DNA of 64,000 nucleotides from Adineta ricciae (taxonomy: Eukaryota > Rotifera > Eurotatoria > Adinetida > Adinetidae). Both the position numbers and the translations under genes were made by a program. Each line of letters begins with the position of its first letter. The stretch's first letter is position 1. The notes under the pieces were generated by a model. The model had not been told where the DNA came from and did no database searches. It saw nothing but the letters and a program-made list of their open reading frames with translations. Location: positions 192,458 through 256,457 of the forward strand of contig CAJNOJ010000069.1 in the NCBI GenBank assembly GCA_905250025.1, in the 5' to 3' direction. Positions 8,468 through 64,000 of this stretch are shown here, one piece after another.

Positions 8468-10207
8468 TTACTTAGTTTTCGTTGCTGGAAGAAATTCAGT
8501 GTAGAGCGTTTCTGGAATCGCTTTCAATGTCTTTTCAAATGAGTCTCTGAAATACGCGAATTTTTTGGTTTTTACGCGCGAAACTCGATTGAATACGTAC
8601 GGTGGCAGCAACATCGGCGGCGGCAACTGTTGCACAACAAGCGCCGGTTGTTTGCTTGTTGGCGGTTGTTGTCGTTTCAAACTGGATGATCGTTTCAATG
8701 AAGATTTCGACCTGTTTTCGTCTTTTTTCGATAGTTGTTCTTCGTTATTTTTATTCAATGCATCCATATTCTCGTAATCGATGACTTCGTTATATGGATT
8801 ACCTTATTGAAAAGTACGAGAATCAATCGGACAAGAATAGAGTAGTTCTTACTTGGATCAGCACTCGCATGAACAGTAAACCGTTTTGGTTGTTTTTCCG
8901 GTTTCGGTAGTTCTTCCTTGACGTTTTCTTTGACAACTTTACATGCTTCGTCAACTGATAAATAACTTTGTGCAACTGGCTTGTTCCCATTATTCCATGT
9001 TTTCACACTCAGCTCATACGCTTGTTCAATACATTCGACCTAAGAGAACTTTTTCAAATGAAACCCATAAGCTGGAAAACATTTACCTCTTCGTCAGTAC
9101 CAGGTTGGATTTTTCCTCGATAGATCTCGGCGATGTTGTTAAAAATGCTGTTCATTTTGCTTCGAACATCCTCGTAACACTGATATTGTTTTTCATCGAA
9201 CTTTTCGTTGGAATTCTCGCCTTGTTGTGGTAAACCAAATGTTAAGCATCTAAACAACGAAGTTCCATGACAAGAACAATGAGGTATTCTTTCACGTACT
9301 TCGCACAACGAATAGTAAATTGAGTCAGTGGTGAAAGTTCGACCATTTGAGTTTGATCACTATCGAGGGTATATGCTAAAACCGTTTTTGCTACACAGAA
9401 TTTTTCCAGTTTAATCTGCGCTTTGAAGTTCATTAAATCAATTGGTAGATGCGTTTGAATTTCGATGTCAACTGGAAATTCATAACGCATGAGAATCTCG
9501 GGAAATGTGAAACTTCCACTGTGATTTTGATACTGTCTGTGCAATTCGTGATCTTTAATCAACGTCGCGAAACGAAGTGGAACACCAGGTGGAATGATGA
9601 ATTCATCATGATTCGTAGGATCTTCAATAATAAAAGCTTCTTTCGGTTCACTGATAGATAGTTCACCTTTATCGGTTTTCTTTACACGCGATTGATATTT
9701 CTCGCGCCGTATAACATTGAAACACGCATTCTTATTGAGAACTATCTTCTTCCATTCGCCGTTACCTGTTTTGATATGTGCCGGCGTATGACAAAGAAGT
9801 TTTATCGACCGTGGCAGCTCGAAACGATATAACTCGAATGCACCTTGGAAAACCCACCAGCGTTTTTTCAGTGTCGGATTTTTCGACAGGATACGACATT
9901 CGCCTTGAAACCAATCTGGGATAAGATATTTTTCCGGGTGAACACCTTGTTTATTTGTTAATGGCGAAGCAACGATTAAATAACGATCATAAATGTTTTG
10001 CAAATACAACCACTGATCTTTCGTCAAGTTTGTATTCCAGACTTGTTCGACTCGAACGATTTGAGGTAATTGAAAATAATCGATAAAATTGTGAAAATAA
10101 TATTCGCCTTTCTCCCATTTGATCTTCGATAAATCTCTGATTAGATCTTCAAGTTTTGTCTTACTTTCTGAAGGCAAATAAACAGGTAGTAATGATGATT
10201 GAAGCAT
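8468..10207 (-). CDS. Possible CABIT-domain adaptor protein (GAREM/Themis-like)
   Basis: Four exons (9300-10207, 9087-9249, 8853-9039, 8468-8802) join in phase to 530 residues. The first 300 residues have two halves that each resemble the start of a CABIT module: FIDYFQLPQIVRVEQ near residue 45 and FPEILMRYEFPVDIEI near residue 245, with EFIIPPGVPLRFATL between. The C-terminal third is charged and proline-rich (QLPPPMLLPPY). It holds a tyrosine cluster, NPYNEVIDYENM, whose YENM fits both the Grb2 SH2 consensus (YxN) and the PI3K p85 consensus (YxxM). GAREM and Themis are CABIT proteins that recruit Grb2 after tyrosine kinase signalling, so the combination is suggestive. The CABIT call rests on memory of the family pattern and is uncertain. 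No SAM domain is visible at the C-terminus. Confidence 0.5.
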
Positions 10208-10670
10208 TTCGGCGACAACGAGTGGTTTGATATGAATGAGTTATCATATTAAAATGAGATAATGATCGTGCTGATCACGCTTGATTTGTTATACAAGGTG
10301 AAAGTTTAACCTTTTACTTTCGATTCTTTGTCTCGGTTGATATTTCACGATTAGACGAGAAAAAAAACTTGTTTGCAAACCTCTCGAGAGAATCGTCTTG
10401 ATTTCCTATATTCATTGATTATTTATAAAGTGTCAGTTCACACAGAAACATACAGAAATACACACGTATACAGATCTGAATCCAATATATATATATTTCA
10501 TAGAAAAAGAAAACAGATAACTGTCAAGGATAAAAGATTGAGAGAAAGAAAGGTAGACAATGAACAAATCAAAACGATGCAAAAATTCCGTGAATGACCA
10601 TTTCAAACATTGACCAAGTCGAGTTATTACAGTAAAAGATATCAGAAGAGAACAGCACTTGGTGATTGAT
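10208..10670. other. Spacer between CUL3 3' end and CABIT-like gene
   Basis: This 463-bp spacer lies between two minus-strand genes. It holds the CUL3 3' UTR and the upstream region of the CABIT-like gene. Only a short AT run (around 10486-10497) stands out. Confidence 0.4.
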
Positions 10671-13600
10671 CTAAGCAACATAACTATACATTTTCCTAAA
10701 CAATCCAAAGTAAATCAATCGAATACACATTGATAATTTGTCAATTTTACCTATCGTCCGTTGAGCGGGATAAATAATCTCGTTCAATTAAACTTTCAAT
10801 TCGTTTTTTTATGAAGACAGGACTAGGCAGGAATCTTGCTTTAAGTTGATGTGTCACCTAAAATGCCCACATTGATGTCCGGACAGTTGAAAACAATAAT
10901 AACATACCTCAGTGATCAGCTGTGTATGAGTCATTGTCTTTCTCGTTTTCATGATGCGCACAACAGCTGCGTCGATGATATGCTTGCGATCATCGTCGAC
11001 TTTATTTCGTGTTTCTTGTCGTTCGGGATCGCTTTCAAGTTTCGCTGTCACTGGATTGATTTTCACACGAAACAATTTCGATACAAATGAATCATTGACA
11101 CAGAAACGATCCGATGGGTGAATTTCTTTTGTCTTAGGCTCTTTGAGAAACACACGCTGATTAATTTTACCCATTGATAATGATAATAACGCACGTTGTA
11201 AATCTTTTTCACTGATATCTGTTTCTTGTTGTATTTCCTAAAGATCATCGCATAGAAATGAAAAATGAAAGTGATATGAAGTGATCTACCTCAAATGACC
11301 AAGACTCTTTTAAATTGAATAACATTAATATCACCATTTGGTATGTTGACACTTGCAATGTATGTTTTCGTTCTTTTGTCGTGATCGTTGTAGTTGTTGG
11401 TCTCGATTCACCGTCTCCGTCATCATCTTTAGGTTTTCCGTAGAAAATCGCAGTTAAATCTGCTGAACCTAAACTTGGCTGTAATGTCAACTGTCGTCCG
11501 CTATGTTTATTCAGATAGAATCGATGGAAACATTGATAGGCTTCTCGAACTATCGTTGGTAAATTACATCGATGATTCGCTGTTTGTGTTTGCCAAAAGC
11601 CTGTAGTTAACACTCGAACAGTTAAGTCAATACCATTCAAATTGATCTATTCAAACGCAAGAAGAACTCATAGGAAAAAAATCACCAAAAACTTCTTCAG
11701 ATTTACGCGTTTTTGTGAGACATATAATCGGAAATCGTCAGCAGTTGTATTTGATACGCAAATATCTTTGAACATTCCTTCTAATTTACAAGTAAATTGA
11801 CAACCACATTCAGTTTTCAATCGGGATATCATATTCTTCTCTGCATCGTCGGATGCTGATTTGTTCAACAGCAGTCGTTTAGCGAGATGCTGCTTATAAT
11901 ATCGTTCGAAAACATCTTTCTCTTCCAAATAGCGAAATAAAATCATTGCTTTGTCAAGGACAACTTCGACTTCTTGATCGCCGATCTACAAAGAATGGTT
12001 CGATACGAGAGTAATCACCGTCAAAGGCCTCTACGTACATCTTTTGCACATTTTTTCAATTTGTCATCAATGAATAACGATAAATATTCCGGACTACGTT
12101 GATTCAAGTTAACAAAGAATTCAAAATCCGAATTGATTCGTTTTTTGAATACCTAAATCAAAAGAATTATCCCTGAACTCGAGATCACAATACAAACTTT
12201 GTCTTCATTGAATGCATTTTTCAGAAAATGATCAAACGTATCCTTCAAATCGAGTAAATTCTAAATAGGACAATAGAAATGACGAATCTTCTTCCATATT
12301 TCTTACTTGAACATAAGAAATCGCGTTTTTTCCTTCATCAGCATTCTCCGCTACGAGAGCACGTCCTTGTTCACGGAGATAACTGCTCATACAATCGGCG
12401 ATCGTCAAATGTCCATTGGGTACACGTTCAAATAGTCTATACATAGTCGTGAGATCATCGCATTTATTGAACTTGAGCATATGGTACACGCCTGAATTCT
12501 CCATTTCAACTATGGTTTTCAAATGTTTCGTTATCAGTTCATCTAAATCAAGAAGAACATTGATTTTTGCGGAATAACTTCATGTTTTTCCCATCTCTAA
12601 CCTTCGAGTACTCGAACGATGTGTTCTTCGGTTGATTTATCCAGATAATGAACTGCCCGTTCACCTTCTTCACTGATCCGTGCTGCTACTTTTCGTATGT
12701 AAACTGAGGCACTATTCTCCGCCAATAATTTTTGACTTTCAAGCTGCAAAAAGACAAAGCAATCAAGTTAGAAACTTAGAGGCCATCGCTTTCTTCTATT
12801 CTTCATACGCGATAGAACTCCGCTGATTGTTGTAGAAATGGTATTTCGAAATCTTCAGCATAAACTGAACGATTGTCGATGCCTAGATTCATTAACATCT
12901 GACAAGCATTTTTCACGGCGCTCCTAAAAAGAGAAATATCATATTNATAATTTTTGACTTTCAAGCTGCAAAAAGACAAAGCAATCAAGTTAGAAACTTA
13001 GAGGCCATCGCTTTCTTCTATTCTTCATACGCGATAGAACTCCGCTGATTGTTGTAGAAATGGTATTTCGAAATCTTCAGCATAAACTGAACGATTGTCG
13101 ATGCCTAGATTCATTAACATCTGACAAGCATTTTTCACGGCGCTCCTAAAAAGAGAAATATCATATTCGAAGATGTGCTTGTGATTTATAACTTCATCGT
13201 TTAGCTTCGAGGCATTTCTTTCTGCGATCAAACGTGCCCATCAATGCGTGTGGCTCACTTGTTGGTTTTCTTTCCTTGTCTCATTCTATTAACTATCATT
13301 GCGTTAAGAGACAACAGCGATTGAAAAAGAAAAAGGAAAAAAGCACAAAAAAAGACGTTTCCATTTCTCCGTTTGTCTTCTCCCATTTTTTTTCCTTTGT
13401 TTCCTCTCGAACAAACGATCGGAAAAAAATAAGCTTGTTAACAAGCGTCGTCGTTCAACATATAAATCTTATTTCTATAGGGGACACGTTCTGAAAAAGG
13501 AGAAAAAATGACAATATTTCTTTCTGATTTTCTCCTACTAATTCTGACATTAAAGTTTATTAATGGTCAATTTTGTTATACAAACCAATGCTCTGTTCAT

Positions 13601-16600
13601 GCAACGTTAACTGGTGATGTACAAAATTGGGCTCTCTTGATTCAGAATTACATTCTGAAATTGGCATCAGATACTATGCATCGTGAAAAAACTCAAGAAT
13701 ACTTCGATCTAGCTGAATACAAAGAAGAAACGAAACATGGAGATAAATTACTTGAGGAAATGAAAGCGACTTTGGAGAGATATTTCGAATACAAGCAACA
13801 CGCTGCTAATCGAATTGCCAAACATGCGCGAGAATTACATGATTCCATGTATTTAGCACGTGAAAAAGTTTATTTACAATATTTAGCAAATAATTCAACT
13901 GGTCAACCATCATGGCGCAAATCGAACGGATCGCTCGGATTAACTCAGCATAAACAACTACTTCATTTGGACGCTGATGCGTATAAGGATGCTGATATAC
14001 CGTTACGTTTACCATCGAATATGACGTTTCATCCGCATTTTAAACGAAATGTTAGCCTTAAACATAGTGTTGTGAAAATTAGTGATGAAATACCGCGAAA
14101 TAATGTCGAATCTATTTGGACAGTCGAATGGACACACGGACTCGAATCTACATTTGTGCAAAATCGAGAGGAAGATCCTGGAATACGCTGGCAATACTTC
14201 GGCTCCAAAGTTGGTCTCATACGATTGTATCCCGGTCGTGAATGGGATCAGAACTTTGCGGGATTTTATAATGATTATGATCCTCGTGTTCGTCCGTGGT
14301 ATATCGGTACGACAAGCGGACCGAAAGATGTGATTATTATAATTGATTGCAGTGAATCCATGGCATCGAATGGTAAATTCGCTATCGCACGATCAGTCGC
14401 TACAGTTATTATTAATACGTTAACACGACAAGACTATGTAAATGTTATATGTGCACACGAATCTCATTGGAACGATATTGGCAAATGGCATATTTATAAA
14501 ACGAAAGTTTTAAGCTGTGAGCAGGACAAGATGGTCAAAGCCACATTAGCCTACAAACGTGATTTAAAAGAAAAAATCGCAGAATTGAAACCAGGTGGAA
14601 CATCTGAATTCGAAACAGCGTTTGATACAGCATTTGATTTATTTCAACGTGAGCCAAGAACGGGTTGTCAGTCGATTTTAGTCTTTATCACCGATGGACA
14701 AGATACCGATGGAGAAAAAGTACGTTGCGGAGCTGGTCAGTATACACGTAGTGGATATGTGCCAGGACCGATTTGCAAGTATAACTGGACACGATATTGG
14801 ACGCAAGTGAAACAACGACAACAATTTCATCCACGAGCAAGGGTGTTTAGTTACCTCGTGAAAGACAACGGACAAATATTTCCCGGAAAACTAGGTAAGA
14901 AATCTTTTCATTGATTGACACGATAGTTTCGTTTTATTTGCATAGCGTGTGAAAATGATGGGCATTTCACTATTTTGAACGACGGGGAGAATTTAATCAA
15001 TAAAATGTTCAATTATTTCGATTATCTATCCAAAGCTTCGCTGGGCACGAACGGCAGTTGGACATCGCAATATATCGATCAGTGGGGCTTAGGAATCATG
15101 TTAACCTATGCAATACCAGTCATTTCTGACATAGATGGACGTTTAATTGGCGTAGCTGGCGTCGATGTCACATTAGACGATATCGAACATGTCATCTCAA
15201 GTAAAAGTTGGGGAAGTGTCTACGGCTTTCTCGTTAATCGTCTTGATGGTGATGCAATTATCCATCCAGGTTTAAAATCTACAACCATTCCCATCGAAGA
15301 TCCTATCTCGACACAAATTAAACAGCTGGAAATGTCAAATAATAAACCTGAAAAATTTCTCACTGATATTCTGCCATCGATGCTCCGAGGCGAAAAAGGC
15401 TCGCTGAGATTAGTAGACGCTTATCGAGCGACCATGCGACGAGGATTTGGTATGAAGTCATTTCATCACATTGCAATTGTTTGTATTCGTTGTTGTAGGT
15501 GTTGGAACATATTATTGGTCTCCGATTGAAAATACCGATTATGTCTTTGCGTATAGTTTAGGTGAATCAGATGAGAAATTTCGTGAAGTCCGACAACCAA
15601 AGGATTTATCGAATTATGAAGAAAGCTTCTTTAATCTTTTGATTGAATACAATAGTAGCAAAGGTCGAGAAGTTTTACCCGGCAAATTCGAGCATATGCA
15701 AGTGAAAATTAACGATCCGAAATATAAAGATTTACGTGTCAGCTATTTATATTCGTCGATTATGCTGGCACCACGTGTTTACTGTGATCCAAGCGAGTAT
15801 TTCTATAATGATGATCTCGCACAAAAGACCATCAATGCGCATATTTATATTAATCAACGTGGCGATCCAAATGAAAACGATAAAGGTTGTGATGAAGCAA
15901 AAGTCATGTTTCACGAAAATACACGTGCTTATGTTTTAATCTCACAGCCAATCGAAAGAGTTTGGCGGGCGAGACCATCGGAATTAACGAAAGATATTAT
16001 TTGGACGTATGTGGGGATGAGAACGGGTGTTTTTCGAACATATCCAGCACATCGATCAGTACGAGACTATGATCATACAACACGTGGATGGTATAAACGA
16101 GCCGTTTCGCTTCAAGATCGAACAACAGCATCAATGCCATATTTGGATTTAAGTGGAGGTGGAAAAGTTATCACCATAGCGCAAGTACTTTTTGAAGGTA
16201 CGATTTCAGGATAAAGTTGTTTGGACTGATGGCTTCCTTTTTCTTCTTCAGGTATGCCATCAATATCGAATGAAACATGCCAACAAAAAGCGAAAGGTGG
16301 GTCTTCCGAACGAAAATTTCCTGGCGGTTGTCCATGTTCAAATGGTGCCGATTGCTTGTCTGGATACTGTTATCAAAGCGCAGCACCTGGACCTGAACAT
16401 AAGCAACTGCGTTGTGCTACGGAACGAATTATTGGTGTTACAGCTACTGATATACGATATGATTCATTTCATTCGGAAATTATGAAACGTATGGTTGCCT
16501 CCGATGATCATCGGTCATGTGGTTCGAAGTATGCCTGTCCAGGAAATCAATCGAAAGAATGTTCAACACGTTGCTATCTCGTTGATCACGGCGGTTATCT

Positions 16601-17856
16601 AATTGTCGATCCTGACTTCGTTGATATACCTGCCATACATGAAAACCGTTACAATCAACTAACCCTCGGCCATAAAGAAGGCGAAGTCATGGCAGATTTG
16701 ATATATACCCATCAATTATTTGATCGAGTTGAAACTATCACCTTTCAAGGGACATGCCATGTGACGAAACCGTCAGCGAAAGTCACATTAAAAGGTATAC
16801 CAGCCAATCCCGAAGAATTAGATAACAAATACAAAAACAAAGGACCCATTCCACAATTCATCAACGAGTACGGTTGTATACAAGATCAAGTACGATATCG
16901 AATTAATCAAGCGAAATTAAAATGGTCGGAACTATTCATTGGTGAAGTCAACGGACCATGTATGAGTGGACAGTACTATGTCACACCATTAGTTAAAACA
17001 AATCTTATCCTCGTTGTTATCGAAAACTATTATGCGGAACAATCGAAGAACTTCTACAACTTCAATTGCAAAATCCAACGAAGTATCGTCGATGCTGGCG
17101 CATTTCGTATTATTAATGGTACATGTGCGCACAAAACAGAAAAACTAAGTAGTCTCTATGGCGAAAATAAATGTCCAGCGTTACGCGAAGTGGAAATCGA
17201 ATGTAAATACAATCAAATGAACAGACCTCAACTCTCCCTCATTTTCATTTTTTCAATACTTCTATGTTACAAACTACTTTTCTAGTTAAATAAATTCTCT
17301 TGATATAAAAACCAACACATTCTACTTACTTTTCTACAACTTCACCACGTCTTTCTTTGGCGACCATGTCAAGCAACGTTTGTCTCAGATGATCTCGTAT
17401 AGGTGCATAACGGACAACATTATCACGAAATAAGATTAAACCCAAATTATAAACAGGTTCGAGTTTTTGTGCGCTGACGTAAACTCTATCCATGTACATG
17501 AGTATATCACGTATCATAACCATAGCTGTTCGATGATCATTCCATGCTGAGTTTAAAGTTGATAGAAAGTTATTATTCAACGAATCAACGGCATCTTGTC
17601 GAACCTAAAAGTTTTCTTTCTCGAATACATTTTAAACGGAAATGGTTCGTCTTACTTTTTGTACAAGGTGCTCTGTAACAACATCACGTGTGCCTGTATA
17701 CAATTTCTCTCCGTGTTTGTGTAGCACCATTGTATATGCATTTCGATAGAGTTCTTCAAAACTTAAACCACTGTTGTTTTTCTTTTGGATTTCTTGTATC
17801 GCTGTTTTTAACGATGTGTTCCAAATACTATTGATATAACGATCGTCGACGGAGGA
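10671..17856 (-). CDS. CUL3: Cullin-3, ubiquitin ligase scaffold (5' end not found)
   Basis: The exons encode almost all of cullin-3. Order on the minus strand: 17656-17856 ([19 protein letters not shown]), 17330-17604 ([20 protein letters not shown]), then across a 4.2-kb intron 13031-13145 ([17 protein letters not shown]), 12602-12743, 12307-12542 and further exons to the winged-helix end ([13 protein letters not shown] and RKMYSYVA) at 10671. The neddylation site context IVRIMKTRK is present. CUL3 bridges BTB-domain substrate receptors to RBX1 and an E2. The [13 protein letters not shown] ending is specific for CUL3 among cullins. The first coding exon, expected to carry the start and an RIRAFP-like motif, was not found upstream of 17856. 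The exon at 13031-13145 is repeated at 12809-12923 by an assembly error around the N at 12946, so it should be counted once. The large intron contains the whole alpha2/delta gene on the other strand. Confidence 0.95.
12725..12945. repeat. Left copy of 221-bp perfect duplication beside an N
   Basis: Reading base by base, this block equals 12947-13167, with only the N at 12946 between them. It includes a CUL3 exon and its flanking intron sequence. Identity that runs through intron and exon alike and ends exactly at the N is what two overlapping contig ends placed side by side would give. Confidence 0.9.
12947..13167. repeat. Right copy of 221-bp perfect duplication beside an N
   Basis: Second copy of the 12725-12945 block, offset by 222 positions. 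This copy is physically continuous with the alpha2/delta gene and the N-terminal CUL3 exons to its right, so the nested arrangement does not depend on the gap. Confidence 0.9.
13508..17285 (+). CDS. CACNA2D: Voltage-gated calcium channel alpha2/delta subunit
   Basis: Four exons (13508-14894, 14946-15449, 15499-16197, 16252-17285) give a 1207-residue protein. A signal peptide (about residues 1-21) is followed by the VWA N-terminal region, then a VWA domain with an intact metal-ion adhesion site DCSESMAS and [11 protein letters not shown] double Cache region ([33 protein letters not shown]) and Cys-rich segments come next, and the protein ends in a hydrophobic tail ([17 protein letters not shown]) typical of GPI attachment. 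Alpha2/delta proteins raise surface expression of CaV1/CaV2 channels and bind through the metal site. The intact site argues against CACHD1, which has a degenerate one. The gene lies within a CUL3 intron on the opposite strand. Its stop is 45 bp from a CUL3 exon, and its AATAAA (17289-17294) falls in between, so its 3' UTR probably runs close to or into that exon. Confidence 0.92.
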
Positions 17857-19399
17857 CTAAATTGAGAAGTTTAACGAATGGAACAAGAGAATTTTCTGGA
17901 GAATTTAACATACGAAGAATTGACGAATACGCATTCTTTTATTCGGATCTTCTACTTTAATGGATGGCTTACTCATAGTCTAAGAAATACATCAAAGTTC
18001 GTCAATGATAGAAAATCGTTGTGGCAAGCTTACTCTACCGATGGCAGTCCATGCAGTTTTGCACAGTCTAGACAACAAAAGATCATTGTATTAATAAGGA
18101 AATACACATCTTCGCTTACCAAATTGATAAATTGTTTAGATTTAAATCGAAATTATTGTCATTTCGCAAGGTGGATTCTATAAATTAGCGCGTTAAATCC
18201 AAACTCGACTGTATTCTTGTTCAATGTCGTATGGGAAAAGCTGCTGATGCCTCAAAGAAAACCGAATATGTTCTATGGTAGATTCTCAGCCAATAACTAT
18301 TCGATAAGGTCCGTAATGCACTCTCTCCTTTTTCATTATCGACTTCACGAAATCACCTATCTACAGTACGATACCTTTCACATACGAAATATTCGATACA
18401 ACATTTTCTTGTGTAGATGTCGCTAGTTTTCATTTAAGATTCGATTGACTGTTTCTTGTGAACCAATAATATAAACAATCTTTTGTTCACATTCACGTTT
18501 TGAAAATTTTCAAGACTAAGAGCACGTCAACATTGTTGTTCGATTCAACTTATAAACAATCAAGTTGCTGTTCTACTGTCTCTTCGTAACATGTAAGTGA
18601 AATGCCTGCGAAAATAAGGAAATCTTGACTATTCTAATGAAACCTTTTCTCTTCCGATGTTCACGAAAGCGGACATAGTTAGTTGCTAAGGCTTTGTATT
18701 AATCAGGATATGCTACCTAGACATAGATCAGCCAAATCGCGTAACTGATTCATGATTTCGTTGGAAGAGAAACTTTCAATTAGTTTTGTTCTCGTTTCCT
18801 GAATGGCGACTATTGTTTAATCAATGAGAACGAGTCGCATCGTGAAGAGCACGTTCAACTCCAAGACTTAAACTGCTGGAGCCATCATATTCAGTACGAA
18901 GAATCTCGTTATTTCAAGTATATCTGCTATTTATAAACATGTTTTGCTGTTTCATGTCGATGATTAAAACAAATTAATTTGAATAGAGAAAATCTGTACA
19001 CTTGTATTGATCAAACATTAATAGAGATATTTATATGTAATAGATTACGATCATCTGTCGTAATTGATTGATTTTTCATAGGAGCACTTGAAATCTTATT
19101 AAGATTAACCGATAATATTGTTTTCCTTTTGTTAATGAGCGAAATGTAATCGATTAGAGACAAGATTTTGTAAGCTATTTTCTTCTATTATGAAAGTACA
19201 GGTACGATTTTCTTCTTGTTTATTACTGTTTCGACATCGTTTACATTCAAATAAGTGTCATGCTCGGTTGATTAATAAACGAATTGCTTGTCTATTAAGT
19301 ATACGCATGTTTTTCTCTTTTTTTTCATAGATCTATCGTGTGTCAGATTTATTGTCGGCGATATTGTTTCTTTTTGTTACGGTTTCGATCAGTTTAGTA
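17857..19399. other. Region upstream of CUL3 with no gene seen
   Basis: The missing CUL3 first exon and promoter should lie here or further right. I searched the minus strand for an RIRAFP-like coding segment without success. Small plus-strand frames (17878-18426) carry no recognisable domain and overlap the expected CUL3 promoter. Confidence 0.4.
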
Positions 19400-20592
19400 A
19401 TATTTTTTTTTGCTGGATTTAATTGTGAAAAATATGAGTTGCAGGAACAAGTGGAGACGAAACGAGGGAAGACAAGTAAGAGTGCAAGTGGGCGCTCAAA
19501 GGAAAAAGAACAAGAAGAGGAAGAAGAAGAAGAAAAAAAAAAAGAAAACTGTCTGTCGTTACAAAAAAATCATGTCACCAAAGAAAAAGGAGAAGATGAG
19601 AAAAGAAAAGAAAGGAGAGATGATAAGTTCAAGACCCTATCATTCGCATCGAACTATTCTCATGAGAAAAGAAAGGAAGAGTCAAGTGTGCAGAGTGGAA
19701 ATGCATGGTCTCGCTCTCTATCCCTCAAGGTTCTTGGCGTCATCAGGTCTCTTATTAAAAGAAAAGTCAATAAACTTGTCTTAGCTTCTTCTTCTTCTTC
19801 TTTTGTCGACGAGCTATTAGAAATTAATATACAGATGGATTCATCTAACAGTTACAATGCAATTCGAAGTCACATTGACCTCTTTTCATGTGCAACTGTA
19901 TGAACACTGAAACTTAGAATGATATGAGAAGTGCTGCCAGTAAATTTTTACTTGTGCAATTTGACTATACATCCCTGTATGTCTACCTATCTACGTCATT
20001 TGTTCGAAATCACTCAAGCATAATACATACGGAGAAGGTGTCTCTTTTCTCCTCTTCTTCTTCTTCTGTCGTCGTCGTTCTGGTCGTTGTTACTGCCTTC
20101 TCTTCTTCTCCTTCTTCTTCGTGCTCTTGTCGTTTTTTCGGAGAAAATACATTACACGACGATGATAGTGATAACTGTGAACAGTGAGTATTGATACAAA
20201 GATTTTACGTCGAAAAAAGAGGAAGAAGAAAGGAGAAAACAACACTAATCAATGGTCATTCTGAACATTACATGTTGAAGATAGAAATTCGAATATGAAA
20301 ATTGACTTGTTAGTTTCTAATGTTATTTTTTGTTCGGTATTTGAATATGCCGCTTCTATAACGCGAGCTTTGACAAATAGTGGCATGCTGCCTGTTTGTT
20401 TTCTTCTCGTTGTGATAGGTCTCCTTCTTGCTTTCTTTTTCTTTTCTTTTCTCATATGCTCTCAACTCCTTCTCGATCTCTTCTCCGATTCTTTTGTTGA
20501 AACGAACACACCGTGGCAGCAAAAAATTCTACGTATTATTAACACATCACCCTTTCTTCTTCTTTTTTTTCTTTTTTCTGTCCGTGTATGTA

Positions 20593-30504: not shown

Positions 30505-32142
30505 ATGGCACAGATTATAAACACGTAAGTGACAACCGATCAGAAACGAAAAACAAAATCATCGACGTGATGTTTTCTCTTTCAGTTCGAATTCAGCTGA
30601 TTATCAACCGATGATTCGATCGACAACGCCATCCGAAGATGAAGATCACTTTCTCACCCCATCTTCGGATATCAATTTCTCTCAACTGAACGGCGTTGTT
30701 CATCCATTTACTAGTATAGAAATAAATCCGAACGATGATGATTCAGTCAACACAGATGATTTATCGCAACCGACTACACATATTATTCATCAATATGAAA
30801 CATACCTCAATTTAAGTACATCAAGCAGTGAAACAAGTCTTGCGCGACCACTTCTCAATGGAAAAACATTCTCAACTCCTCTCTACACCGAAAATGTGAA
30901 AATCAAGTCCCCGACTGATTCGACCCATCCGTTGAAAACCAATTACTATTCATTCATCAAAATCTATTTCGTGGATATGCTTATGTCAGCATTCATCATA
31001 ACACCGCTCGTTAACATACATTGGCGCGGAGCATGGGATCTACTTGATATATATCTTTTACCTGAACATCCACATACAAGCGCAGTTGTTTCACTAGCTA
31101 TCGGTCTTGTCGTTCTTTATTTGATGTATCTTATGCAAAATTTCCTCCAAAACTTCTATGAAAAACACCGTAAAAATCTTCGCGGACAGATCATAGCAAG
31201 ACTCTATACACTAGTCGTGGCATTCGCATACATTAATCAATGGCGTGGCCTGTGGAACTTATTGGATTTAACAAGTAACAGCTGGTATCGACTGACCATC
31301 GAGACGCTCGTCAGTATTGTCGTACTTTTATGTATGAAAGCAATTTATAATCTTAATTCCGCACCATTTTTAATCGCTACGGATACCGAACATTATTTTC
31401 TGGTCGATTCGAAATTTGTTGTTTCGGTAAGTTCACATAGGTTTTAACCGAAATATATTCGGCTTGTTCCTCTAGACGCGTCGATTTTGGCAATACACAT
31501 GCGATTTTACTGTTTATGAACTCGTCGAAGCTCCGTTCATTGTCATTGCCTGGCGCGGTTTGTACAACCTCTCAGATATCTATATCTATCCAGATAACAA
31601 GACGATGTCAATATTAATCTCATTTGCAATTGGTTATTCCTTGTTTTTCATTCTTGCACTTCTACAATTACCATTAATTCAATGCTTTACGAAGAAAACT
31701 CCTCAAATACTCTACACAATTCTTTCAAATGTTTTTCATTTGATGGCATTTGTTAGTGTCGTGCAAATTTGGCGCAGCCTGTGGCTGATATGTGAACAAT
31801 ATATTAACATACCTGGTTATCACCATTCAACACTCTGGCTTTGCTACGTTGCCGCGTTTATCGTATTGACATGCATTTTTACAGCATGTTCATTGAACGG
31901 GCCGGCGGGAGCGAAGGAAAGTTACATGGATGATCAACCAGTTTTTCTCTTCAAATTTGATTATTTTTCAACTCTACTGAAAGTAAGCAAGGAACGTTTT
32001 GGTGGCTAAACTAACATTTTGCTTTTTGTAGAAACAATCAGATCGATTGAAAAGCCAAAAAGCGACTCATCTTGGTTCCGACTTATCATCAACAGAAACG
32101 ATCGTATCGCACGAATCACCTTATCGTTTCAAGCCTCCCTAA
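30505..32142 (+). CDS. fusl: Fuseless-like multi-pass membrane protein
   Basis: Four exons (30505-30524, 30586-31426, 31476-31982, 32032-32142) give 492 residues. After about 110 polar residues come eight or so hydrophobic segments built on a repeated unit: IHWRGAWDLLDIYLLP, INQWRGLWNLLDLTS, IAWRGLYNLSDIYIYP and VQIWRSLWLICEQYI. Four such WRxLWxLxD units suggest an internal four-fold repeat. This pattern matches the fuseless family; in Drosophila the protein acts at the presynaptic terminal and is needed for calcium channel clustering. The start at 30505 is chosen because it is the only ATG that joins the long exon in phase, though the first exon is just 20 coding bases. AATAAA at 32507-32512. 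Confidence 0.75.
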
Positions 32143-61812: not shown

Positions 61813-62583
61813 TTAGGAACTAAGTAAACGTTGAGTTGTTTGGGTGACTTTATTTTCAATATCTGTTACATTTGTATCAACGAAAGCCAACATTTTGAAA
61901 CACGAGTCCAATGTTTTTGTTAATTGCTTGATATTTTGTTCGTTAATCAATGTTGGATCAGTCGATTGACTGGTTGATGTTACATCCTGTTCTTGATCAT
62001 TGTCATCATCTTGCTCGTTCATTTTATCAACGATTTCTTGTAAATCTTTAGTTGAACATTTTACTAACGAATCTAATTGTTCCATTAATTGAAAGTTTTT
62101 CATACGTTCGTTGAATGTTAATGGTAAGTTTTGATTGAGATACATATTTTGTTGTTGAATTGAATAGATGTCTTGTTGCAAGGGCGGTAATTGTAGAATA
62201 TCGTTTTCTAGACTTTGTAGATTCATTTCCAATTCTTTTTCATGTGTATCCAATAGTTTCAATTCATCCTGTAAGTGATTTTGTTGTAATTGCATCTGAT
62301 TGATATCACGTTGAACTGATTGTAAAGTCTCGCGATATGTCGCCAAGTCTACATCACGTTGTCGAACTGATTGAGACAGATTTTCGTAAGATAAACGATG
62401 TTTCGTGTCGAAATCAGTTTGCCATTTAGTCAATAGACGTTCTAAATCACGATAAGTACGTGTGACCGGTTTTGCCGCTGTTGCTGCTGCCGTTGTCGTC
62501 GTCGTCGTTGGAAGTGTGCTTGCAGTCGTACCTGTTGCTGTAATGCTTGTTGTACTAGTTGCTGGATTGAAAAAGAAACTCAT
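61813..62583 (-). CDS. Nup62-type coiled-coil protein, no FG repeats (copy b)
   Basis: Single exon, 256 residues. A Thr/Ala-rich start (residues 1-38) precedes a heptad-rich coiled coil that follows the Nup62/Nsp1 C-terminal pattern: TYRDLERLLTKWQTDFDTKH (compare the Nup62 LEGLINKW element), a second helix block around residues 85-130, MEQLDSLVKCSTKDLQEIVDKMNEQ, and LTKTLDSCFKMLAFVDTNVTDIENKV. In Nup62 this part assembles with Nup54 and Nup58 in the central channel of the nuclear pore. The FG-repeat domain that forms the permeability barrier is missing here. It may be a structural paralog or the coiled-coil half of a split gene. TTTTCTAG stands directly before the ATG. Confidence 0.65.
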   Translation of the reverse strand: MSFFFNPATSTTSITATGTTASTLPTTTTTTAAATAAKPVTRTYRDLERLLTKWQTDFDTKHRLSYENLSQSVRQRDVDLATYRETLQSVQRDINQMQLQQNHLQDELKLLDTHEKELEMNLQSLENDILQLPPLQQDIYSIQQQNMYLNQNLPLTFNERMKNFQLMEQLDSLVKCSTKDLQEIVDKMNEQDDDNDQEQDVTSTSQSTDPTLINEQNIKQLTKTLDSCFKMLAFVDTNVTDIENKVTQTTQRLLSS

Positions 62584-62613
62584 CTAGAAAATCACAGAGC
62601 AAAAAGTAAATGT
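62584..62613 (-). promoter_or_regulatory. 30-bp intercistronic spacer with 3' splice site
   Basis: On the minus strand, AATAAA overlapping the upstream stop is followed by a T-rich tract ending TTTTCTAG directly before the ATG of the next gene. There is no room for a promoter. This is the layout expected of a trans-spliced operon, or of a cis intron whose donor lies in the upstream gene. Confidence 0.45.
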
Positions 62614-63165
62614 TTATTCAATTTTTATTTGTTTAATTGTTTCTTGAAGATTATGAACGTCATGAAAGCATGTTTGTAATTCATCTGTAGTTTTCAAAAT
62701 GGAATGATCTGTGTTGATCTGAAGGGCGTTATTAATTTGCTTCATCGTTTGATCAAGTTCGTTGAGATGTGTATCGACTGAATCCATCAGTTCGTAGGTG
62801 ATCGAACGATCTTGATCAGTTTTTAGATTACAACGAATGTTGGGTAGAAGAGATTTACTGTCGGCATTCAATTGTTCAACGCTAGTTTCAAGTTCATCAT
62901 TGTATTTTGCTAGTGTTTGAACTGACAGCTGGAATTGTTGCAAGTTTTTTTCAAGATTGGCTAATAAATTCTGCGTTTGAATGATCGAGTTGGTTGTTTG
63001 ATTAAGAGATTGTTGTTTCTGTTCGAGTTGATTGGCAAATTGTAGTAGATGTTCTTCATTTCGCAATAAATTTTGGTGCCATTCGTCGATGACTTGTTGT
63101 AAATCATCTGTCGTTTTATTTGGCTTATTGAGAATTGCTGAAATCGAACCGTTTATCGAAGACAT
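62614..63165 (-). CDS. Nup62-like coiled-coil protein, no FG repeats (copy a)
   Basis: Single exon, 183 residues, nearly all coiled coil. TTDDLQQVIDEWHQNLLRNE matches the first helix of copy b (LERLLTKWQTDFDTKH), and YELMDSVDTHLNELDQTMKQI matches its later MEQLDSLVKCSTKDLQEI block, so the two genes look like tandem paralogs of the Nup62 C-terminal domain. There is no FG repeat, signal or membrane segment. The stop codon overlaps a polyadenylation signal (AATAAA), and the next gene starts 30 bp downstream. Such a short spacing suggests one precursor RNA. The Nup62 relationship is weaker than for copy b, and other coiled-coil families cannot be excluded by eye. Confidence 0.5.
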   Translation of the reverse strand: MSSINGSISAILNKPNKTTDDLQQVIDEWHQNLLRNEEHLLQFANQLEQKQQSLNQTTNSIIQTQNLLANLEKNLQQFQLSVQTLAKYNDELETSVEQLNADSKSLLPNIRCNLKTDQDRSITYELMDSVDTHLNELDQTMKQINNALQINTDHSILKTTDELQTCFHDVHNLQETIKQIKIE

Positions 63166-64000
63166 CTGGGTTTTTCTCGTTGGTTGTGAAATGAAAATGT
63201 TTTATGCATTAGACAGATAGATATGAAGAACAAAGAATCGATTGGATGTATTTCGCCTTAAGAATATAAACAACTTCATGATAGATGTCACTAGCAACAG
63301 AGGAAGTTCGTTACGTCGAAATTTTAACACGGAAGTCTTTATTCAATGCACTGATTTATTCCTTGCTATAAGAAGTGAAATTTTCATGTTCGATTGGTCA
63401 ACAGTTGTTGAAACATGTTATGATTAACGACCGTGTCTCAATATTTAAAAGACTTTTACTGTTTATTTGCACTTTTCATATGACGAGAAACACTAAAAGC
63501 TTTCTTTTGTAAAATCAATAGTTTTAGTCTTTCTCCGCGCTTTTTTTTCTCAAAAGAAAGACTTTCAACGGCAATTCATCAACAATACGAGTCATCTGTA
63601 TCTTCACACCGTCAGAACAGAAAGAAATCGAGTTGTTACAAGCAACAACATCATACGAAATGACTCTTTTTTCTTTACTTTTCTTTCACCTTTGCTACCA
63701 CAACAGTCAGACTGTTTTTTTTCAGCGTTGCAACTCATTTCTTTATCATTGAAAACAACAGAAAGGTGTTGTATGTTCATTCGAGCATAGCTCATATGTG
63801 ACTACTAAACACAAGGAATATCATAATATGAATCAACCGGCGTCAACTCATGAATAACACAGGTTGTTTCGCTGTACTGGCAACAGTTACCGAGAGAATT
63901 CGTATATTTATTTTGTAATAAAAGAAAAAAATCTGCGTAGGAAGTAATCAACAACAGAATGATTATTTCAAAACATGAATAGAAGATACGAAAAGATAAG
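63166..64000. other. Region upstream of the Nup62-like genes, no gene seen
   Basis: AT-rich DNA that should hold the promoter for the four-gene minus-strand run. A 63-codon minus-strand frame at 63604-63795 shows no family signature. Confidence 0.4.

Follow-up and report, generated by a model that had tools for sequence, protein, structure and literature searches.

The CUL3 Locus and Its Nested Gene

The 64,000-nucleotide stretch of the Adineta ricciae genome analyzed here (contig CAJNOJ010000069.1, positions 192,458 to 256,457; hereafter the window) contains a complete cullin-3 gene (CUL3) on its minus strand, with 13 exons (17976-10671) encoding 768 amino acids. On the plus strand, within intron 3 of CUL3, lies a second complete gene of four exons (13508-17285) with an uninterrupted frame of 1207 codons. 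A sequence-only reading of the window had proposed such a four-exon, 1207-codon gene on the strand opposite CUL3, in a host intron of about 4.2 kb, and the gene model confirmed it. The intron measured 4184 bp (13146-17329, minus strand, GTAAGTAG...TTTTTAG) and is 4190 bp in a second haplotype, represented by contig C20. The further proposal that the nested gene accounts for the length of this intron is also supported.

Exon 1 of the nested gene (13508-14894, plus strand throughout) encodes the VWA_N and VWA domains, exons 2 (14946-15449) and 3 (15499-16197) encode the first and second Cache-type regions, and exon 4 (16252-17285, stop codon included) encodes a cysteine-containing portion with a hydrophobic tail at its end. 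The introns between them are 51, 49, and 54 bp long, and all three have GT-AG borders. The stop codon lies 44 bp from CUL3 exon 3 and is followed after 3 bp by AATAAA (17289-17294), a putative polyadenylation signal that ends 35 bp short of the same exon. The two genes have no coding overlap and lie on opposite strands in both haplotypes. A search of positions 10000-19500 for known RNA genes gave no matches at E 0.1.

Very probably, then, the same chromosomal segment carries two independent protein-coding genes, one on each strand. Leftward transcription of CUL3 would cross the nested gene in antisense, with intron 3 being spliced out whole. The nested gene would be transcribed rightward, most likely from its own promoter, presumably located in the 362 bp that precede its ATG (13146-13507, plus strand), which would also hold the 5' untranslated region. 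Its transcript would end just short of CUL3 exon 3 at the putative polyadenylation signal. Function is supported by the selection acting on the two proteins in each haplotype, and we infer that CUL3 and the nested gene are both transcribed and expressed. Shortly upstream of the nested ATG, the sequence TTATTTCTATAG (13469-13480) resembles a splice acceptor and is a candidate site for trans-splicing.

The CUL3 Gene Model and the Scaffold Junction

The ATG of CUL3 is at 17976, in exon 1 (17914-17976, minus strand, as are all exons of this gene), followed by exon 2 (17656-17856), exon 3 (17330-17604, with the donor of the host intron at 17329) and exon 4 (13031-13145, in its right-hand copy, discussed below). 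Exons 5-8 (12602-12743, 12307-12542, 12198-12260, and 12039-12152) and exons 9-13 (11707-11985, 11290-11646, 10908-11237, 10751-10857, and 10671-10695) complete the model, and GT-AG borders are present in 12 of the 12 introns. The ends of the two exons that flank the nested gene, and the cullin-3-like protein sequence across their join, were as the sequence-only reading had given them. Both the cullin homology region (PF00888, 706.7 bits) and the C-terminal neddylation domain (PF10557, 97.9 bits) scored above their cut-offs in one frame. The best match of the protein in the PDB was Cullin-3 at 1146 bits, against 490 bits for the best Cullin-4 (Cullin-4A), which places the gene nearer to cullin-3 than to the remaining cullins. 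Elsewhere in the assembly, contigs C225 (locus L011) and C255 (locus L012) carry cullin-like genes with 32-43% identity to CUL3 and stop-free stretches of 737 and 809 codons. To judge from their sequences, these are divergent, nearly intron-free paralogues.

Apart from the host intron, the eleven introns of CUL3 are 45-60 bp long, with the exception of one written as 287 bp. The latter contains an N and duplicated bases, and removal of these 222 positions leaves 65 bp. The earlier statement that the other CUL3 introns are under 100 bp is thus correct once the artefact is removed, but not for the sequence as written. The N, at 12946, is flanked by two copies of a 221-bp sequence (12725-12945 and 12947-13167) that are 100% identical, the left copy repeating exon 4 together with the beginning of exon 5. 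As a result, exon 4 is written twice in the window, at 12809-12923 and 13031-13145. Because C20 has this stretch once, with a single exon 4, the most plausible reading of the junction is a contig overlap that was left unmerged, in a scaffold whose order is right. A real tandem duplication of exon 4 was considered less likely, since the copies are identical, abut the N exactly and are represented once in C20. Automatic annotation of 12725-13167 would yield an incorrect CUL3 model or a spurious exon duplication.

The Second Haplotype and Selection

The alignment of contig C20 with the locus shows about 94-95% identity, and no N was found within the 10 kb of C20 that carry it. Both frames are intact there as well, with 1207 codons for the nested gene and 768 for CUL3. 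The numbers of synonymous and nonsynonymous substitutions per site (dS and dN) between the window and C20 were estimated from Nei-Gojobori counts. For the nested gene, dS was 0.165 and dN 0.0065 (dN/dS 0.040). For CUL3, the corresponding values were 0.184 and 0.0102 (dN/dS 0.056). These ratios point to strong purifying selection on both genes.

The region upstream of the nested gene is unusually alike between the haplotypes, with differences at 7 of 361 sites in 13146-13507 and at 2 of 280 within 13200-13480. Differences were found at 42 of 527 sites in ten short CUL3 introns (the N-containing intron was excluded from this count), 15 of 154 in the nested gene introns, and 3 of the 44 sites that follow the nested stop codon. 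Upstream of CUL3, 49 of 424 sites differed in 17977-18400 and 54 of 1096 in 18400-19500. The nested upstream region is therefore the least diverged of these six non-coding stretches (Fisher p = 7e-5 vs. the ten CUL3 introns), as expected of a promoter. The possibility that it belongs to a repeat or promoter family was rejected, as the sequence is unique to this locus and C20.

An Empty Site in an Ohnologous CUL3

A second complete CUL3 gene begins at position 2307 of contig C61 and encodes 769 amino acids, of which 658 (85.6%) are identical to those of the window protein. The proportion of synonymous differences between the two (pS) is 0.68, giving a saturated dS of about 1.8. At the site of nesting, in the same codon and phase, the C61 gene has a plain intron of 63 bp. 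Its neighboring introns are 44-66 bp long and its first intron 404 bp. The window genes on the low-coordinate side of CUL3 (from 10240 to about 5047) are matched on C61 by counterparts in unchanged order, as far as about 16027, which identifies C61 as an ohnologous region. For A. ricciae, synonymous divergence (KS) of 0.14 +/- 0.036 between homologues and 1.27 +/- 0.146 between ohnologues, and a median intron length of 55 bp, are given in PMC5916493, with counterpart values for A. vaga of 0.05 and 0.61 (PMC5916493). The divergence values found here are nearer to the published A. ricciae values than to those of A. vaga. Additionally, intron 5 of the window gene (12543-12601, between exons 5 and 6) is absent from the C61 gene (locus L029, 3533-3910), a difference that would represent a gain or loss between the CUL3 ohnologues.

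When the nested protein was compared with the whole assembly, seven matches were found. Four of these are the C69 (window) and C20 copies, and the remaining three, on C35, C24, and C18, are distant, with 39-40% identity over about 117 amino acids. One of the two ohnologous lineages thus has the nesting and the other lacks it. Going by the two loci compared, the nesting was either gained in the former or lost from the latter.

Alternative Explanations and the Origin of the Nesting

A scaffold gap lies about 560 bp away from the nested gene and is accompanied by the duplicated 221 bp, which could suggest a misjoin that placed the nested gene within CUL3 during assembly. However, the whole arrangement sits to the right of the N, as had been noted from the sequence, and it recurs in the independent homologous contig C20, which has no N across the locus. 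The C69 and C20 haplotypes also differ throughout, so that one is not a copy of the other. The earlier view that the nesting is no scaffolding artefact is upheld, and a misjoin is extremely improbable. It is only slightly less improbable that the locus is a silent relic, either a pseudogene or unexpressed, with CUL3 function carried by the intact, short-intron C61 gene. The sequence-only reading had named a second intact CUL3, with the window locus silent, as the situation that would speak against it. Such a second gene does exist, but silence is argued against by the frames and splice sites, intact in both haplotypes, and by the purifying selection seen in the dN/dS of each gene. Another explanation is that the nested gene regulates CUL3 by transcriptional interference or antisense pairing and has been kept for that reason. 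The opposite orientation of the two genes would permit this, and the nested 3' end is close enough to the CUL3 donor, within 44 bp, that a slightly longer 3' untranslated region would overlap exon 3. Nevertheless, strong selection on the nested protein itself already explains its retention, and a regulatory role as the cause appears unlikely.

The direction of change between the ohnologues is less one-sided. We consider it fairly probable that a multi-exon membrane-protein gene entered a CUL3 intron of about 60 bp in one ohnologue after the lineages had separated, and such an insertion is the simpler reading of the two loci. Less probable, but still plausible, is that the nesting predates the regional duplication and that a deletion removed the nested gene from C61, leaving a short working intron. 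No other copy indicates where the gene came from, and ohnologous regions of bdelloids have been described as having low collinearity and signs of degeneration (PMC5916493), both of which would fit a loss. On the other hand, the 63-bp intron is sized like its neighbors with no remnant detected in it, and a deletion would have had to spare both splice sites, although neither point is decisive.

Several observations weigh against the interpretation of two functional genes, with a promoter upstream of the nested one, that were brought together by insertion. C61 starts about 2.3 kb before its CUL3, so the collinearity comparison covers the downstream side, and no haplotype partner of C61 appeared among the genome search matches. 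The whole-assembly search revealed no further copy of this gene, but the assembly is fragmentary and this absence is no proof. Because CUL3 exon 4, which adjoins the region upstream of the nested gene, has 0 differences in 115 bp between the haplotypes, local gene conversion could partly explain the low divergence of that region. Finally, neither AATAAA nor ATTAAA was found in the 500 bp past the CUL3 stop codon (10171-10670, minus strand).

Identity of the Nested Protein

The nested protein had been called a calcium-channel alpha2/delta subunit, a name that proved too specific. In its favor, Pfam matches to VWA_N, VWA, and a Cache-type domain were obtained. In the whole protein, MCP-like_PDC_1 scored 45.6 bits, above the cut-off of 27, while dCache_1 scored 22.5 bits, below the cut-off of 45. 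A MIDAS-like (metal ion-dependent adhesion site) DxSxS motif in VWA, DCSES, was read by eye in the translation along with GGTSE and ITDGQD, the motif being the one that we take to apply to VWA domains. Both ends of the protein, N- and C-terminal, are hydrophobic by eye. Like alpha2/delta subunits in these domains, the protein also has alpha2/delta-1 as the closest PDB match of its N-terminal half and, at 144 bits, of its whole length. In contrast, VGCC_alpha2 (PF08473) was not detected in the whole protein at E 0.001 or in its two halves at E 5, and the C-terminal half is not recognizably alpha2/delta in the PDB. A genome-wide search for VGCC_alpha2 gave no matches and was uninformative, as the positive control likewise gave none.

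The C-terminal 556 residues alone matched CACHD1 best (E 9e-12), together with bacterial Cache sensors, and not alpha2/delta. The second Cache-type region in particular was matched to bacterial Cache structures and CACHD1. Despite this likeness, CACHD1 scored only 92 bits over the whole protein, and the higher score of alpha2/delta-1 in the N-terminal half means that the protein is not closest to CACHD1 along its entire length. Overall, the nested protein belongs to the alpha2/delta-CACHD1 superfamily and is here named alpha2/delta-CACHD1-like.

The distant gene on C35 is the better candidate for a conventional alpha2/delta subunit, as one stretch of 119 amino acids scored 93 bits with alpha2/delta-1 vs. 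39 bits with CACHD1. C35 and C24 are a haplotype pair (94% identity over 9.7 kb), and C18 has about 77% identity to C35 over 655 bp. A recent origin of the nested gene as a retrocopy of the other alpha2/delta-like gene in the genome was rejected because of the low identity noted above. The C35/C24/C18 gene has about 18 separate conserved coding blocks (from C18 vs. C35; blocks rather than a gene model), whereas the nested gene has four exons. An old, intron-poor origin of the nested gene is thus possible.

Spliced Leaders and Other Genes

With the query that we take to be the bdelloid spliced leader, 46 sites in the assembly matched at three mismatches or fewer, and 41 of the 46 shared the same single mismatch. 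Neither the exact query string nor a reversed control gave any match in the assembly. At the two leader loci inspected, the leader is followed by the donor-like GGTAAA. Genes resembling the leader often occur as inverted pairs, the two members lying about 153 bp from each other on one contig (C6, C8, C43, C77, C79, C99, and C146). A spliced leader of 22-23 nucleotides has been described for bdelloids and was not found in a monogonont (PMC1925144). Elsewhere in the window, the open reading frame at 30533-31444 (plus strand) matched Fuseless (PF15993), and that at 61816-63201 (minus strand) matched Nsp1_C and, weakly, Nup49_C.

Comparison with Known Nested Genes

Searches of one open-access library gave no report of a nested gene in a CUL3 intron or of a nested alpha2delta gene in a rotifer, and for nested genes in bdelloids they gave a single paper, a review of introns. 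The arrangement is ordinary in kind, being common in animals, while this instance is new to those searches. Also new is the collinear C61 CUL3 with its empty 63-bp site, a ready-made comparison within the same genome that could be used to test whether antisense nesting carries any cost for the host gene. If the nesting was indeed gained, one tetraploid-derived genome carries a natural pair of CUL3 genes, with and without a passenger, and both the cost of transcriptional interference and the tolerance of a compact-intron genome for a 70-fold longer intron would be measurable against an internal control. In addition, two annotations are corrected: a CUL3 exon written twice at the scaffold gap, and a name for the nested protein that was too specific.

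Nested genes make up 4.3-8.7% of genes in seven vertebrates (PMC8467205), and nesting on opposite strands is well known (PMC8467205, PMC3933685). Antisense intronic examples include 2mit in Drosophila timeless2 (PMC3786989) and the LRRTM genes in alpha-catenin introns (PMC3933685). As in those cases, a single intron of an unrelated host here contains a whole protein-coding gene in the opposite orientation. Unlike them, the internal gene has 1207 codons and three introns of its own, and without this passenger the host intron would measure about 50-60 bp. A long, intron-containing gene inside a host whose other introns are 45-65 bp is not the usual form described in PMC8467205.
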